Below are positions 1,669 through 26,589 of a stretch of 26,590 bases of DNA, in pieces. Both the position numbers and the translations under genes were made by a program. A model generated the notes under the pieces. It was not told the origin of the DNA and did no database searches. It saw nothing but the letters and a program-made list of their open reading frames with translations. Source of the stretch: a virus; IMG/VR virus record IMGVR_UViG_3300030106_004536, positions 1-26,590 of that record; one strand, written 5' to 3'. Each line of letters begins with the position of its first letter. Position 1 is the first letter of the stretch.

Positions 1669-1692
1669 AACAAAGGACCCCGTTCGGGGTCC
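1665..1692 (-). terminator. Rho-independent terminator for leftward late transcription
   Basis: GGACCCC (1675-1681) pairs perfectly with GGGGTCC (1686-1692) around the loop GTTC. Read on the minus strand, the hairpin is followed by TTTGTTTTAT, a T-rich tract. On the plus strand the hairpin is followed by CCTGTAGG, which has no T-run. It is therefore best oriented to stop transcripts of the minus-strand late operon after they pass under the AP2-like gene. The A-rich upstream side might give weak bidirectional function for the ssb-ruvC transcript. Confidence 0.7.
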
Positions 1693-3463: not shown

Positions 3464-3703
3464 CTAGGCTTCTGGCTGATCGGATGAGGGGGCCGGGGAG
3501 TTTCCCGATGCAGCCTCAACCGCAGCACGCTTCTGCTTAGCCACGTCTTCGAGGGAGATGCCCATGACACCGGCCACAGCACCCAAGGAAGAAGCGATGA
3601 TCGCCTCGGTAGGCAGGCTGGGGAAGAAGTGCTTAGCCAGGATAGGCAGCACAGCAGCCAGGATCGACAGCCACAGTTTGCGGCTCTTCATCTTATCAGA
3701 CAT
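3464..3703 (-). CDS. Putative holin, two hydrophobic segments
   Basis: I choose ATG 3703 (79 aa) over the in-frame GTG at 3715 because GGAG lies 6 bases before the ATG. The protein starts MSDKMKSRK, then has a first hydrophobic stretch (LWLSILAAVLPILAKHFF, residues about 10-27) and a second (AIIASSLGAVAGVMGI, about 34-49), with a charged Ala/Ser/Pro-rich tail. Small size, two membrane spans, a charged N-terminus and a polar C-terminus fit a class II-type phage holin, which would form membrane lesions that let the endolysin reach the wall. The upstream gene's TAA is one base away. The M15 endolysin lies about 2 kb upstream in the same operon. Confidence 0.65.
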   Translation of the reverse strand: MSDKMKSRKLWLSILAAVLPILAKHFFPSLPTEAIIASSLGAVAGVMGISLEDVAKQKRAAVEAASGNSPAPSSDQPEA

Positions 3704-3704
3704 C

Positions 3705-4040
3705 TTATTCTCCACTCAGAACTGCGACGAGTTCTGCTTTACGCATATCAGAGTAGCCCTCGATCCCACGCTCACGGCACAGGTCACGGAGTTCACGCAC
3801 CAGCATCGAGGCGTAGTCTACTTCCTCTTCTTCGGCACCTTCGATCGTCAAGCCTGCCTCTGCCGCAGCAGCAGCGGGACTGTCGGCACTAATCACCCAG
3901 CCCTGAGCGCCGATCTGACGCAGAAAGAAGTTGAAAGACTCACCCTCGACCACGTTGTGGGTGCCAGCGTCAGCACAGACGGTAGCTTTGCCGCCCAGCT
4001 TCCACATGTATTCCTTCTTAATAACTCCGTAGATCTTCAT
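3705..4040 (-). CDS. SAP/Rho-N-like domain protein, putative virion-associated
   Basis: A 111-residue protein in two parts. Residues 1-55 form a small beta-rich region (MKIYGVIKKEYMWKLGGKAT, then QIGAQGWVIS). An Ala/Glu linker (AAAAAEAGLTIEGAEEEE) leads to residues about 79-108, LVRELRDLCRERGIEGYSDM followed by RKAELVAVL. This last helix-turn-helix pattern matches SAP and Rho N-terminal (HeH/LEM-like) domains, which bind nucleic acid. SAP-like tails are common on small phage head-region proteins. The gene lies between structural and lysis genes of the late operon. The exact role is unknown. Confidence 0.55.
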   Translation of the reverse strand: MKIYGVIKKEYMWKLGGKATVCADAGTHNVVEGESFNFFLRQIGAQGWVISADSPAAAAAEAGLTIEGAEEEEVDYASMLVRELRDLCRERGIEGYSDMRKAELVAVLSGE

Positions 4041-4048
4041 GGCTTCTC

Positions 4049-4348
4049 CTACTTAAACCAGACAACGCTGTAAGTGCCGGTATTAGCAGCAGCAAAGACG
4101 TGAATCTCTGCGTCATCTGCTACCGGGAACTCAAGGGACGCACCGGGCTCAACAAGGATGCCCTTAGCTGTACCAGAGCCAACACTGCCGACCCGGATAT
4201 TGATCGGACCCAGGTTGCTGATGATGCAATACTTCCCCTGCACCGTAACCTGCTCGAACGTATTGTTCGGGGTGGTATCGTCGTTGATCGTTACTGTGTC
4301 GCCACCCCAAACAAAGTTATTGCGGATGACTCGGCTGTTAATATCCAT
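4049..4348 (-). CDS. Small beta-rich virion-like protein (99 aa)
   Basis: The sequence is almost entirely alternating hydrophobic/polar strands (TVTINDD, EQVTVQGKYCIISNLGPINI, GILVEPGASLEF, YSVVWFK) with few charged helical segments. This fits a compact beta-sandwich of the kind found in phage decoration, head-fibre or tail accessory proteins. It follows the adhesin and a 69-aa protein in the operon and ends 8 bases before the SAP-like gene. No specific family is recognised. Confidence 0.5.
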   Translation of the reverse strand: MDINSRVIRNNFVWGGDTVTINDDTTPNNTFEQVTVQGKYCIISNLGPINIRVGSVGSGTAKGILVEPGASLEFPVADDAEIHVFAAANTGTYSVVWFK

Positions 4349-4350
4349 CT

Positions 4351-4560
4351 TTACGGTTCCTCATTCCATTCAGGCTTTGCTACTTCCTCAAGTGCTTCAG
4401 CATGTGTTAACTGTGTACACCCAGTCGGAACCGGGTCTAGTTGCGTTAGTCTCTTGGTGATACCTTTGTCATCAGATGACAACCGGACCCAAGGCGTTTC
4501 TGTGATAGCCTCTACAGCATCCTTCGGCCCAAGGTAATAGTAATGAGGCGGGTAACTCAT
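4351..4560 (-). CDS. Hypothetical protein (69 aa)
   Basis: The start ATG overlaps the stop of the LamG gene by 4 bases (ATGA), supporting real translation. The protein opens with a Tyr-rich segment (SYPPHYYYLGPKDAVEAI) and ends in an acidic stretch (EALEEVAKPEWNEEP). No membrane segment, metal site or known motif is visible. It may be a small chaperone or cap for the adjacent LamG protein, by position only. Confidence 0.55.
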   Translation of the reverse strand: MSYPPHYYYLGPKDAVEAITETPWVRLSSDDKGITKRLTQLDPVPTGCTQLTHAEALEEVAKPEWNEEP

Positions 4561-21502: not shown

Positions 21503-21693
21503 TAGATGTCCCCCCGCAGATAGTTGATGCCGTAGTAGGCATCGTCAATGTCGTCGTTGTCCCCAGCCCCCCCGCTGAACACGGGGAGGTCAAGGGACCT
21601 TTGACGAAGCCGCCGAAGACCCCACCAGATCGCAGCCAAGAACCATAACTGGCCAAGGCTGACGATCAGGAGGGATACTTCGAGCCACAACAC
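21502..21693 (-). CDS. Small membrane protein with acidic tail (63 aa)
   Basis: The GTG start at 21693 overlaps the TAG stop of the capsid gene (TAGTG) and the stop overlaps the next ATG (TAATG), so it is embedded in the operon. A strongly hydrophobic segment (LWLEVSLLIVSLGQLWFLAA, residues about 2-25) is followed by a basic cluster (RRLRQRS) and an acidic C-terminus (GDNDDIDDAYYG). It is probably one TM helix with its tail in the cytoplasm. A small membrane protein directly after the capsid gene is unusual. Alternative reading frames in this region are shorter or lack the overlaps. Confidence 0.5.
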   Translation of the reverse strand: MLWLEVSLLIVSLGQLWFLAAIWWGLRRLRQRSLDLPVFSGGAGDNDDIDDAYYGINYLRGDI

Positions 21694-23015
21694 TAGTTTG
21701 CGACGCCAACCAGAACGCCGTTGGCATTCGGACGCTTAGCAACCAAGTTGTGGTAGTAACGAGCAAACGCCTCGTACACATCCTTAGAAGAGGTACTGCG
21801 ACTAAGAACGCTTCCATCAAGATCGGCCATGCCAGGATCTTTGAGCGTGACATGAGCCCAGGTGCTCGGAGCCAGGGCAATCACGCAGCCCTTCGGAGCG
21901 TGACGACTAGCACGGAACGGAATTCCGCCGTAGCTCATCTGCTGGGTATTGAAGCCAGCGTCAGCGCCCTTGCCAGATTCATTGCTGGTAATACGGAAGT
22001 TGCTACCCGTGACCTGCGTCAACGTCTTAACGTAAGCGTCCATGAACCCGTGCTCGACGAAGAACATCTCTGGGCGCTTGTTGCTTTGACGCTGAATCTT
22101 GGTGAGCAACTTTTGAAGGTGCCCACTTTCAAAGTCAACGCCGGTACCAGCCGCAGCACACCCACTATGAAAGCTGGAGCGCAAAGCGCTGTAATCAGGA
22201 ACCGCCCCACCAGGGTTGGTACGATCCAGGCCGAACAGGCTTTCCTTGCAAAGGTTAGTAAGGATACCGGAGGGCTGCTCTGCAACCGTTTCAGTGCCAC
22301 CTGCACTAACATCAGCGTAGCTTGCAGCCTGGTCAATAATAACAGCAATCGGCACGTCGTTGGGAATTACCGGAGCCGCACTGTTACCTGCACCCAGAAT
22401 CACTTCGGCGCTCGACGTAGCAGAACTTGCATTGGCCGTCAGTTTGACCGTGGTCGCACCATTGGTAATTAGAGCGTATGTGTCCATACGAACCAACCGG
22501 CAAGCGATAGCGGCGCCACCAAACGCAGGCAGATGCTCAGCGTTCCCGAAGAAGTCGGCAGCAGCAGCGTTCAGGTTAGCGTTCTTACGCATGACGAAGC
22601 CGATGCAGCCACCACCCGAAAAGAAGTACTGATTGGCACGGTTAGAGAGAGACTCCAAGCAGCCGTCAATTTCTTCCTGAAGGGTTGCCTTCAAGCCCTG
22701 GGGGTTGTTCCGTCCAGACTCAATAGCAGGTCCGGTCAACTCCATGCGGCTGTAGAGATACTTAGCGTCGACACTCATACGAGCACGACCAATTTCCCCA
22801 GCGTCCGGGATTGTTTGGTTTTCGCCACGATAACCAGCGGAGGTGTTACGTGCGTAGTTAATGGGAACGATCGCTTGTCCGTCGGTAAAGCCAGTGTTGT
22901 GCTGCTTAAACAACTCGACGGCGAGGATCTCGCGATTCAACTGATCTTCGACCTTGGAGACGAACGTGTCGTTCATCCAATTACGAATGTCAGTAATAGT
23001 TACTGGTGTAGCCAT
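21693..23015 (-). CDS. Major capsid protein, HK97-fold
   Basis: A 440-residue protein directly after the scaffold gene. The N-terminal arm (ITDIRNWMNDTFVSKVEDQL) leads into an E-loop region with SMELTGPAIESG-type sequence (YSRMELTGPAIESGRNN), then the spine-like helix (LQEEIDGCLESLSNRANQYF) and the P- and A-domain strands. The late part (PEMFFVEHGFMDAYVKTLT, FNTQQMSYGGIPFRASRHAP, VYEAFARYYHNLVAKRPNAN) matches the C-terminal A-domain of podovirus capsids. AAGGA lies about 9 bases before the ATG. It would assemble the icosahedral head around the scaffold. Expression should be high; the only sizeable promoter-like gap lies just upstream of the scaffold. Confidence 0.88.
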   Translation of the reverse strand: MATPVTITDIRNWMNDTFVSKVEDQLNREILAVELFKQHNTGFTDGQAIVPINYARNTSAGYRGENQTIPDAGEIGRARMSVDAKYLYSRMELTGPAIESGRNNPQGLKATLQEEIDGCLESLSNRANQYFFSGGGCIGFVMRKNANLNAAAADFFGNAEHLPAFGGAAIACRLVRMDTYALITNGATTVKLTANASSATSSAEVILGAGNSAAPVIPNDVPIAVIIDQAASYADVSAGGTETVAEQPSGILTNLCKESLFGLDRTNPGGAVPDYSALRSSFHSGCAAAGTGVDFESGHLQKLLTKIQRQSNKRPEMFFVEHGFMDAYVKTLTQVTGSNFRITSNESGKGADAGFNTQQMSYGGIPFRASRHAPKGCVIALAPSTWAHVTLKDPGMADLDGSVLSRSTSSKDVYEAFARYYHNLVAKRPNANGVLVGVAN

Positions 23016-23030
23016 TTTATTAAATCCTTA

Positions 23031-23777
23031 TCAGGTTAGGCCGAACAGCTTATCCAGGCTGTCCTGCCATGATTGTTTATTTTGGCCGGCCTGCCCCGAG
23101 GATCTTCTCCCCGTTTGAGAACCGACTTCCGGGGGAACGTCGGGGGCTGCTTTGTTCTCGGCGAGATACCGAGCGATAGCACCCTCCTCAATTTCTGCGA
23201 GGCGCTGAGAATACATAGCGCCAAACGCATTGAGGTCCGCATGTGGATCACGGTTGAGAGCCTCGTAGAACGCCTCTTCCGGTACGCCGGGGTTGCCTGC
23301 AACAGCGTGCTGGACCTCCCGCAGTACATTCTGAGTCTCTACATCGACATCTCGGTTGTAAGCCAACTGCTCATACTGCTGCTGCAAAGCGTTGAAACGC
23401 TGGGCAACCATCGGGTCTAGGTAGTCATCTTCGGCCTGGGTAACGGCAGGCTGTGCCGACTGCTGTGGTTGCATTTGTTCCATAAAGGAACGGAAGCGCC
23501 TGGCTTCCTCTAGCTCCTGTTGCAGCGAAGCGACTTTCTCCTCGACACCGCTCAGTTTTTCCTGAGCCTCGTTGCGAGAAGCAATGACCTTCGAGAAGCG
23601 GGAGTACGGCACGTTGTGCCCGGTTTCCGGCTCCTCTGTTGCAGTTTCGACCTGGGGGGCAGCAGCTTCAGGTGCTGGAGCCTCTTCGGTCTGGACCTCG
23701 TTGGAGCCCGAAGGCTCGGCTTCATTCGACCCGGCGAAAAGTCGATCCATGTCCGCATCAGTAATTTCGATGCCCAT
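23031..23777 (-). CDS. Scaffolding protein
   Basis: A 248-residue acidic protein. The N-terminus is Glu/Pro/Ala-rich and disordered (residues 15-52). The motif NVPYSRFSKVIASRNEAQEK at about 55-74, followed by a Gln/Glu coiled coil (LSGVEEKVASLQQELEEARR), is typical of phage scaffold proteins. A Gln-rich middle, a second helical region (LAEIEEGAIARYLAENK) and a basic C-terminus (GRRSSGQAGQNKQSWQ) follow; the basic end usually binds the capsid protein. A strong GGAGG lies 6 bases before ATG. The gene starts 87 bp after terminase, the only large gap in the late operon, and precedes the capsid gene by 15 bp. Confidence 0.85.
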   Translation of the reverse strand: MGIEITDADMDRLFAGSNEAEPSGSNEVQTEEAPAPEAAAPQVETATEEPETGHNVPYSRFSKVIASRNEAQEKLSGVEEKVASLQQELEEARRFRSFMEQMQPQQSAQPAVTQAEDDYLDPMVAQRFNALQQQYEQLAYNRDVDVETQNVLREVQHAVAGNPGVPEEAFYEALNRDPHADLNAFGAMYSQRLAEIEEGAIARYLAENKAAPDVPPEVGSQTGRRSSGQAGQNKQSWQDSLDKLFGLT

Positions 23778-23783
23778 TTAACG

Positions 23784-23788
23784 CCTCC
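23784..23788 (-). promoter_or_regulatory. Strong ribosome binding site of the scaffold gene
   Basis: GGAGG on the minus strand with a 6-base spacer to ATG 23777. This is one of the best Shine-Dalgarno sequences in the late block, where many genes rely on stop/start overlaps instead. It fits high-level translation of a fresh transcript beginning in the gap. Confidence 0.8.
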
Positions 23789-23831
23789 AAAAGAAAATCG
23801 TGTTTTACGGCCACGCGCACGAGTGGGGTGG

Positions 23832-23861
23832 GTATTACCTGCCATTTTGGCAGGGTGTCAA
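23832..23861 (-). promoter_or_regulatory. Sigma-70-like promoter with an embedded palindrome (putative operator)
   Basis: On the minus strand, a perfect -35 hexamer TTGACA occupies 23861-23856. After an 18-bp spacer comes TAATAC at 23837-23832; alternatively GGTAAT at 23839-23834 gives a 16-bp spacer. The spacer holds the inverted repeat CCTGCC (23854-23849) AAAAT GGCAGG (23843-23838), a perfect 6-bp dyad with a 5-base centre. No T-run follows it, so it is not a good terminator. A regulator bound there would block or activate the promoter that feeds scaffold and capsid. The element starts 3 bp after the terminase stop and lies about 55-80 bp before the scaffold ATG. Confidence 0.6.
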
Positions 23862-23864
23862 GTA

Positions 23865-25463
23865 TCAGGACATTTCCACAAATGGCTGGAGGTCGTTGTC
23901 TCCCTCTGCCACATAGGCTCTGCCGTTGCGACGCTCCCAGGTAAGCATCTGCTCAATGCTTCTGGGCTTGAATGCCTTAGCTGCATTTGCCTTGATTCCA
24001 TGGATCTGATCTAGGCCCATAAGTGCTAGACCGAAAGCGAATACCATGTCGTCGTGATTGCCTGGTGATGCTTCGACTCGACCACGTTTATTGTAGATGA
24101 GCGAGTTGGCTTCCCGCAGGAAAGTTGGGCATGTCATCTTCACCCAGCCTCGGGTGACATATTCGTACACCCGTGACAAAAGCTGCTGTCTCGAACTGGC
24201 ATTTGTATTGAAGCCAAGTAGCTCCGTCCACTTGCCGCCCGTCTTCTCTTCCTTGGTTCTTCGGTACAGCCGTCGATGCTCGTGCCTCAGCTTCTCGATA
24301 ATGGGCACACCGTAGCCACCAGTTGTCTCAACAACCACAAGGCATTGATGTCTCATGCCTTTTTGGTCGTGATACTTGGCAACTTCTTTATCTACGATTT
24401 CCTTGAATAGTGCGGGCTCTACTCGGTCGTAGAAGGAGGAGCACACTTTGATGTCGTGTTTTTTGGTAACATCCAATACCATAAACGCGCTGTAGTCCCC
24501 CCCAGGAGACCCAGACGCAGTATCGACCCCCATTGTGTAGATTCTGTAATCTAAGGGTTTGTGCCACTGCTCGTATCCTTCTCTGATCTTTGTGTAGGGA
24601 AACGGGGTCTTGAAGAAGCGAGCCCCTGAAACAATGAATGAAAGTTCTGGTGATGCTGGGTGCTCTTGGTTGAAGACATCCCAGTTGTTGCCACACTTGG
24701 TGCGTAGCTGCTTAGACATCCAGTTCTTCTGGCCTGCGTCTAGCTTGTAGTCTTCTGCATACTTGTTTTCGAGGTCGCTAAACTCTTTATAGGGCTGCTC
24801 CTCCATGGTCATACGTGGGTCGGACAGCCAGTTGAGGAAGATCTTATTCCAGCCGTTGTCCTTGATCCATAGTTCATGAGCATCGTTCAGTCCGTTGGCT
24901 GTGGACTCCATGATGACTTTAGCTTCCTTGCCGGCAGTGCCGAACAGGGCGCTCATGGTCTTTTGAGGATCTTTCCAGAATGCGTACTCAGAAGCGTGTA
25001 TGTACTGGTAAGTTTGGGACCGCCATCGCTCAGAGTCTGCCGTACCCACTTTAATTTGCGATCCTGTCTTGAAGCGCATTTCGTCGGAACGGGACTTGAT
25101 GGTTGGGATTTGAAACTGCTTCGGAAGGTGGCGATAAGCGAACTTATAGATTTCAAAGATTTCTTCCGCTGACTTGTCGTCATGGGCGACGACAGCGCAC
25201 TTGGTGTTTCTCCAGAAGAGAACCTTCCAGAGGAAGTAGAGAGCGATGACAGTGGACGACCCGAGTTTACGGGCCTTGAGAATCATTACGTTGTTGTGGG
25301 TGTTGAGCCCGGAAATAATCTCTTTCTGTGCATCGAACGGGTCGATGGTGCAGATCTTACCGTTGATGTCTGACAGCTTGGCGTAGCGGGTAGCGAAGTA
25401 CCAGAAGTTGTTACGACAGGCTTCGACTTCCTTGCGGAGCCTGAGTGCTCTGTCGTTAATCAT
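23865..25463 (-). CDS. terL: Large terminase subunit (TerL)
   Basis: A 532-residue packaging motor. The ATPase half shows a Walker-A-like loop (ILKARKLGSST, residues 61-71), the Walker B region (YIHASEYAFW, with E159) and the coupling motif MESTANG (185-191). The nuclease half shows an RNase H-fold acid triad: D314 in GVDTASG, E379 in VVVETTGGYG, and D471/D472 in NHDDMVFAFG. It drives ATP-dependent DNA packaging and cuts concatemers. The ATG follows the upstream stop directly (TAGATG), and the GAA/GAG-rich end of the preceding gene serves as a purine-rich ribosome site. No small terminase is recognisable next to it; the two small genes upstream are the only candidates. Length and motif order are normal. 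Confidence 0.93.
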   Translation of the reverse strand: MINDRALRLRKEVEACRNNFWYFATRYAKLSDINGKICTIDPFDAQKEIISGLNTHNNVMILKARKLGSSTVIALYFLWKVLFWRNTKCAVVAHDDKSAEEIFEIYKFAYRHLPKQFQIPTIKSRSDEMRFKTGSQIKVGTADSERWRSQTYQYIHASEYAFWKDPQKTMSALFGTAGKEAKVIMESTANGLNDAHELWIKDNGWNKIFLNWLSDPRMTMEEQPYKEFSDLENKYAEDYKLDAGQKNWMSKQLRTKCGNNWDVFNQEHPASPELSFIVSGARFFKTPFPYTKIREGYEQWHKPLDYRIYTMGVDTASGSPGGDYSAFMVLDVTKKHDIKVCSSFYDRVEPALFKEIVDKEVAKYHDQKGMRHQCLVVVETTGGYGVPIIEKLRHEHRRLYRRTKEEKTGGKWTELLGFNTNASSRQQLLSRVYEYVTRGWVKMTCPTFLREANSLIYNKRGRVEASPGNHDDMVFAFGLALMGLDQIHGIKANAAKAFKPRSIEQMLTWERRNGRAYVAEGDNDLQPFVEMS

Positions 25464-26388: not shown

Positions 26389-26589
26389 CTAACTGTTAGC
26401 GACGGCTTCCGCCTCTTTCTGACTTGTACGGGTATCGATGAGAGTCAAGCAAGCCTTGATCCAAGGAACAAAGTTCTCGCAGAAGCGCTCTACTTCTTTG
26501 GGTTTCTCGTGAATGTGAGCAGGGAACGTCTCCAGGCAGTTCATAAACTCTTTGGTCTTGTGCCAGAGCATACGGTGCCGATCGTTCAT
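26389..26589 (-). CDS. Small helical protein at the window edge, hypothetical
   Basis: A 66-residue helical protein if it begins at ATG 26589; the true start may lie beyond the edge. It shows Phe/Trp/Cys-containing helices (MNCLETFPAHIHEKPKEVER, FCENFVPWIKACLTLID) and a polar tail. No motif or membrane segment is recognisable. It is the first late-operon gene visible and ends 8 bases before the LysM start. A role in packaging is possible by position only. Confidence 0.5.
   Translation of the reverse strand: MNDRHRMLWHKTKEFMNCLETFPAHIHEKPKEVERFCENFVPWIKACLTLIDTRTSQKEAEAVANS

Follow-up and report, generated by a model that had tools for sequence, protein, structure and literature searches.

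A perfect 17-bp dyad (CCTGCCA-AAA-TGGCAGG), located between the terL gene and the putative scaffold gene of an uncultured virus of bacteria, was conserved in the relatives having the same gap and was found again, in two relatives, at the head of the late operon. Comparison of these sequences supports the dyad being a late-gene control site present at two places, and not a feature of one promoter. A protein that times virus assembly probably docks there. With a probability of roughly 55%, it would be the DNA operator of a dimeric, probably phage-encoded HTH protein that controls late transcription from the two places.

The window (the whole stretch of DNA analysed, 26,590 nt) is a 26.6-kb viral contig from IMG/VR. 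According to the ORF list, its minus strand contains a single continuous late operon, which runs leftward for 24 kb from position 26589 to 2038 and includes LysM/endolysin, terL, putative scaffold, major capsid protein, portal and tail-region genes. The terL gene (23865..25463, minus strand, 532 aa; phrog_2 terminase large subunit, E=1e-32) is followed by a gap of 87 bp (23778-23864), the putative scaffold gene (23031..23777, minus strand, 248 aa) and the major capsid protein gene (21693..23015, minus strand, 440 aa; phrog_14242 major head protein, E=4e-28). No match was obtained for the scaffold gene against PHROG, and it was assigned only from its position between terL and the major capsid protein, where it is kept in relatives. 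As described in the earlier note, the late operon is otherwise almost without intergenic DNA; this gap is the sole sizeable one and the others do not exceed ~16 nt. The identity of TerL to named phages was 26% at most, and no TerL relatives were detected in a prophage/host search of 84,980 genomes. Of the early operon, the window contains no more than the 3' end. Past the last late gene, a perfect 7-bp hairpin (GGACCCC-GAAC-GGGGTCC, 1675-1692, minus strand) followed by TTTGTTTT was visible; it is likely the terminator separating the convergent early and late operons, and a tail resembling that of this hairpin was found in the relative G008 (G008:9823).

Read on the minus strand, the terL stop codon (TGA, 23867-23865) is followed by tac, the -35-like hexamer TTGACA (23856..23861), a single c, the dyad (23838..23854), the hexamer TAATAC (23832..23837), the stretch ccaccccactcgtgcgcgtggccgtaaaacacgattttctttt, a GGAGG ribosome-binding site (23784..23788) and cgttaa, after which the scaffold gene begins (ATG, 23777). 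The ribosome-binding site, 6 nt before this ATG, is kept in relatives. TTGACA, the perfect dyad and GGAGG had been correctly identified and placed in the earlier note, and the 6+5+6 palindrome described there proved to be a genuine palindrome with arms of 7 bp and a centre of 3 bp. TTGACA, one base upstream of the dyad, coincides with the sigma-70 -35 consensus at 6/6 positions and was kept (6/6) in G001, G002/G003 and G007; the exact hexamer occurs six times in the window, both strands included. No -10 hexamer near TATAAT was found at 16-18 bp from it. TAATAC, which had been proposed as the -10, lies after a spacer of 18 bp and matches TATAAT at 3/6 positions, no better than chance; the TTGACA/TAATAC site was not listed by the consensus promoter scan, and in the other clade TAATAC is replaced by TAGATAC with an indel, neither sequence nor register being conserved. 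The notion of an operator in the spacer of a sigma-70 promoter was therefore sustained for a sequence-specific control site, which is conserved and recurs at the late head, and for TTGACA, but not for the -10, which leaves half a promoter.

Downstream of these elements, a 32-nt block (CCCACTCGTGCGCGTGGCCGTAAAACACGATT, 23796..23827, minus strand) was identical in all five sequences with the gap (32/32 between clades whose fourfold-degenerate sites are 59% identical), a conservation that exceeds that of the dyad flanks. This block, which occurs once per genome and gave no match against Rfam, is probably a leader or an element close to the promoter. The first 30 codons of the scaffold gene show unusually high conservation as well (87%, window versus G003), so that local recombination could account for part of the conservation of the block. 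A promoter for a T7-like phage polymerase was rejected, since the block is not repeated and the search for a T7-type RNA polymerase (PF00940) found none in these partial contigs, where the control was silent as well.

When arms of 7 bp or more and a centre of 3-8 nt are required, the window contains 14 perfect inverted repeats, i.e. one per ~1.9 kb, and ~0.05 would be expected by chance in 87 bp. Given this ~5% chance of a dyad in the gap, the dyad alone is weak evidence, and it was counted as real because it is conserved and recurrent. Relatives were found via the TerL and capsid proteins and via pattern search, and sampled the gap in only two clades and the late head in only two contigs. TerL identity to the window was 98% for G001 and 90% for G002 and G003; G007 contains a partial TerL. 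The pattern TTGACA-N2-CTGCCA-NNN-TGGCAG was present in the five gap-bearing contigs (the window, G001, G002, G003 and G007), so that conservation of the dyad in relatives with the same gap, the check suggested in the earlier note, was confirmed in all four of the other contigs. A search seeded on the conserved downstream block alone recovered the same four contigs, indicating that the sampling was unbiased by the dyad.

Between the window and G003, 59% of the fourfold-degenerate sites were identical, whereas TTGACA was kept at 6/6 positions and the dyad arms at 12/12. In the same comparison the outermost pair of the dyad changes from C/G to A/T on both sides, and the bases flanking the invariant TTGACA vary across the two clades. 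The centres found in the different copies (AAA, TTT, TTC and GAT) vary while the arms are constant, as expected of a dimer contacting half-sites. The central triplet of the gap dyad (23845-23847 in the window) reads AAA in three contigs (the window, G002 and G003) and TTT in the other two (G001 and G007). It flips in both clades, with the rest of the dyad and the within-clade flanks unchanged, as if the core had been inverted at least twice; core inversion is a familiar kind of change at palindromes, and the AAA/TTT flip is neutral for a symmetric duplex site. The motif was not present in the distant relative L005/G004 (73% TerL and 45% capsid identity). An unrelated perfect dyad (GACGAAA-N6-TTTCGTC, L005:2702-2721), which begins within the terL stop codon, was observed in its terL-scaffold gap, and it could represent another operator specificity or chance (about 5%). 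A literature search on the dyad letters yielded nothing related.

The G003 contig carries genes upstream of terL that are absent from the window. Upstream of its first late gene (ATG at L152:3936) the dyad is present twice, as ACTGCCATTCTGACAGT (3854-3870) and CTGCCATTTTGGCAG (3885-3899), with centres 30 bp apart; CTGCCATTTTGGCAG lies 44 bp and the other copy, which has one mismatch (CTGCCATTCTGACAG), 74 bp before this ATG. In G008, whose right end overlaps the window end, the one-mismatch copy CTGCCATTCTGACAG is located 64 bp before the first late gene, within a 53-nt block that is the same as that of G003 except for one variable base, and the divergent early and late genes have a perfect copy (CTGCCAGATTGGCAG) between them, 396 bp further upstream. 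With one mismatch allowed at most, the consensus CTGCCANNNTGGCAG was found three times in G003 and twice in G008, the Markov expectation being 0.03-0.13 per contig. Recurrence at the late-operon head points to a shared late-gene site. The second G003 dyad contains the -35-like hexamer TTGGCA, 18 bp before TATGGT, and would therefore overlap a -35; the distance of the dyad to any plausible -10 differs between the gap and the late head. To call the gap the key control point, as had been done, was an overstatement, since the late-operon head carries one or two copies of the dyad in relatives. Judging from these relatives, the gap is a secondary control site, and the late-operon head lies outside the window. 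The idea that G001 and G008 are two halves of one genome was discarded, as their tail-region genes differ. A separate element was observed in G008 (L162, 14481-17954, minus strand), where a near-identical GTGTGAATAAAT-N10-13-CGTCTAA, with 16-17 bp from GAAT to CGTC, stands before each of six early genes. It resembles an ECF-type sigma promoter and is absent from G003.

The best candidate for the regulator is an early, Mor/C-like HTH protein, which suits this role better than the AP2-like protein put forward earlier. It is encoded in the two relatives whose contigs extend over the early operon, at G003:11993-12433 (P0011, 146 aa) and G008:13155-13505 (P0012, 116 aa), and both proteins, which are 32% identical, gave weak yet consistent matches to Mu-type late activators (phrog_836 late transcriptional activator, E=1e-4, and phrog_532, E=0.014, for G008; phrog_532, E=0.012, for G003). 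What links this protein to the dyad is their co-occurrence in these two contigs. The scores against Pfam Mor (PF08765) were 14.3 and 14.5 bits, under the curated cut-off of 24.9. When the two proteins were aligned with Mu Mor, with Mu C and with five relatives, the G-x-x-Y-[IV] strand motif and the HTH proved to be common to them; the C-terminal HTH is preceded by G-x-x-Y-[IV]-P, the proline being absent from P0011 (VYVGA). Comparison with the Mu Mor/C alignment by hhalign gave 89% over 44 columns, confined to the HTH region, and similarity among HTH domains is widespread. The AlphaFold model was confident in the HTH only, and Foldseek provided no significant fold match. The early HTH protein is not classed as a member of the Mor family. 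A MarR_2-like protein in G003 and TerS, which also has an HTH, remain alternative binders. Plus-strand ORFs of the window (3558-4537) were rejected as regulators because they look like shadow frames of minus-strand genes.

A dimeric HTH protein would bind the dyad as a double-stranded DNA operator. Control would be exerted at the promoter before the first late gene (terS operon) and at an internal promoter in the terL-scaffold gap, which would provide extra transcription of the scaffold and capsid genes. The site would most likely work as in Mu Mor/C, with the dyad at the -35 region of a weak promoter. Activation is more likely than repression because both places have poor core promoter elements: a good -35 with no -10 in the gap, and a dyad over the -35-like TTGGCA, with TATGGT 18 bp downstream, at the late head. 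The motif, its conservation and its recurrence at the late head in relatives were observed; the binding itself, the identity of the protein, the sign of regulation and the start sites are inferred. Tentatively, the highly divergent early Mor/C-like protein may bind CTGCCA-NNN-TGGCAG dyads at the late head and inside the TTGACA internal promoter, turning on the whole late operon and boosting scaffold and capsid separately, internally from the -35/-10 spacer; in this complete form the proposal is more probably wrong than right. If true, such a late-gene switch in an uncultured phage lineage would be previously undescribed.

The dyad could act as DNA or as RNA. As RNA, the gap dyad forms a hairpin of -11.4 kcal/mol (z=-4) located 11 nt after the terL stop in the transcript, which might protect or process the terL 3' end, or attenuate read-through into the capsid genes. 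The two-sided change in the outermost pair preserves this hairpin, and L005 has its unrelated 7-bp hairpin right at the terL stop, although the latter could be due to chance. However, a U-tract is present on neither strand, and an intrinsic terminator was rejected for this reason; a known RNA family was likewise rejected, as there was none for the gap and the sole Rfam match, located elsewhere, was at chance level. No late gene precedes the late-head copies, and the copy kept in both G003 and G008 is the one in which a C-A mismatch breaks the RNA hairpin (fold z=0.21), which favours recognition of DNA half-sites over RNA structure. In addition, the exact sequence of the arms recurs, which is needless for an RNA stem. 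Exact arms and a site upstream of the first late gene fit a DNA-binding dimer better, and we regard a function as RNA element as improbable.

Among the readings of the dyad as DNA, a repressor operator that blocks RNA polymerase at the late-operon and internal capsid promoters until the repressor is removed is unlikely. The dyad lies within the core promoter at both places (the -35/-10 interval in the gap, over TTGGCA at the late head), and the core promoter region is the classic place for occlusion; moreover, TTGACA is a full consensus -35 and the perfect G008 copy is located in the early/late divergent region. On the other hand, with such poor -10 elements there would be hardly any activity for a repressor to block, the sampled parts showed no lysogeny gene and the best candidate protein resembles activators. 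That the phage captured the sites of a host regulator is quite unlikely; phages often use host factors, which as general knowledge is the only point in its favour, but the full pattern TTGACA-N2-CTGCCA-NNN-TGGCAG (not the bare dyad) was found in 13 contigs among 84,980 species, approximately the number due to chance. These 13 matches are inside reading frames, five of them in a conserved stretch of an MlaF-like ATPase gene, and a host-wide promoter class was rejected on the same grounds. Packaging (pac) sites or binding sites for the terminase small subunit would agree with the late-head copies being directly upstream of terS, with the HTH of TerS and with a gene order that suggests a circularly permuted genome, but they leave the gap copy between terL and scaffold and the adjoining TTGACA unexplained, and this is very improbable indeed. 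The operator of a dimeric HTH protein is the preferred reading.

Dyads of the same consensus were also observed in other viral contigs. In L079 (260-12658), and also in L014, L024, L025, L076, L083 and L098, they occur in pairs with a start-to-start spacing of exactly 29 bp (92 counts, versus 4 at most for any other spacing). The pairs are repeated every 400-900 bp with small ORFs between them, and L079 has 20 pairs over 13.5 kb. Next to the array, L076 and L025 encode a protein that matches Sigma70_r2 weakly. These arrays look like a cassette array or a set of promoters or terminators, and they look more unusual than the gap dyad itself. In a second set (L035, L043, L122, L056, L104, L118, L020 and L040) the dyad of this consensus is single, and a conserved GTAAGTCCTTATA-like stretch comes after it, in most cases at a distance of about 15 nt; each contig has several copies of this arrangement.

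To our knowledge, the timing of capsid production in uncultured phages is almost never known. The control system described here is sensible and fairly ordinary, and what is new is the presence of the dyad at the late-operon head of G003 and G008. With a specific site of 15-17 bp, its placement in the relatives and a candidate regulator that can be named, an anonymous operon becomes a regulatory circuit open to testing. Should the Mor/C-like reading be correct, this activator family would reach past Mu-like phages into a different architecture.

Three known systems provide a comparison. Lambdoid repressor operators are 17-bp sites with 7-3-7 symmetry that are repeated at a few control points, and the 17-bp 7-3-7 dyad is likewise present at a few control points; unlike them, it would control late and not early genes, and no repressor or lysogeny gene was found. 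In MerR-type promoters a dyad between the -35 and the -10 fills a spacer of 19-20 bp. The gap dyad is similarly placed between the -35 and the proposed -10, but the spacer is 18 bp and the late-head dyad is not in a spacer; the early operons that were examined yielded no MerR gene, and the only MerR matches were weak HTH matches to TerS, below cut-off. Mu Mor binds as a dimer to a dyad formed by two 5-bp repeats in a 16-bp element centred at -43.5, replacing the -35 (PMC4390567), and Mu C binds over the -35 at mom (Pmom), where the promoter elements are out of phase (PMC4461284). The dyad studied here differs from these sites in its CTGCCA/TGGCAG arms with a 3-bp centre and in lying, in the gap, downstream of an intact TTGACA; the candidate protein is under the Pfam Mor cut-off, and the terL-scaffold-capsid layout of the phage is not Mu-like in the sampled parts. 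As in the Mu Mor/C system, however, several late positions have a dyad of similar size on or beside the -35 of a promoter whose core elements are poor, and the strand motif and HTH of Mor/C can be aligned with an early HTH protein.
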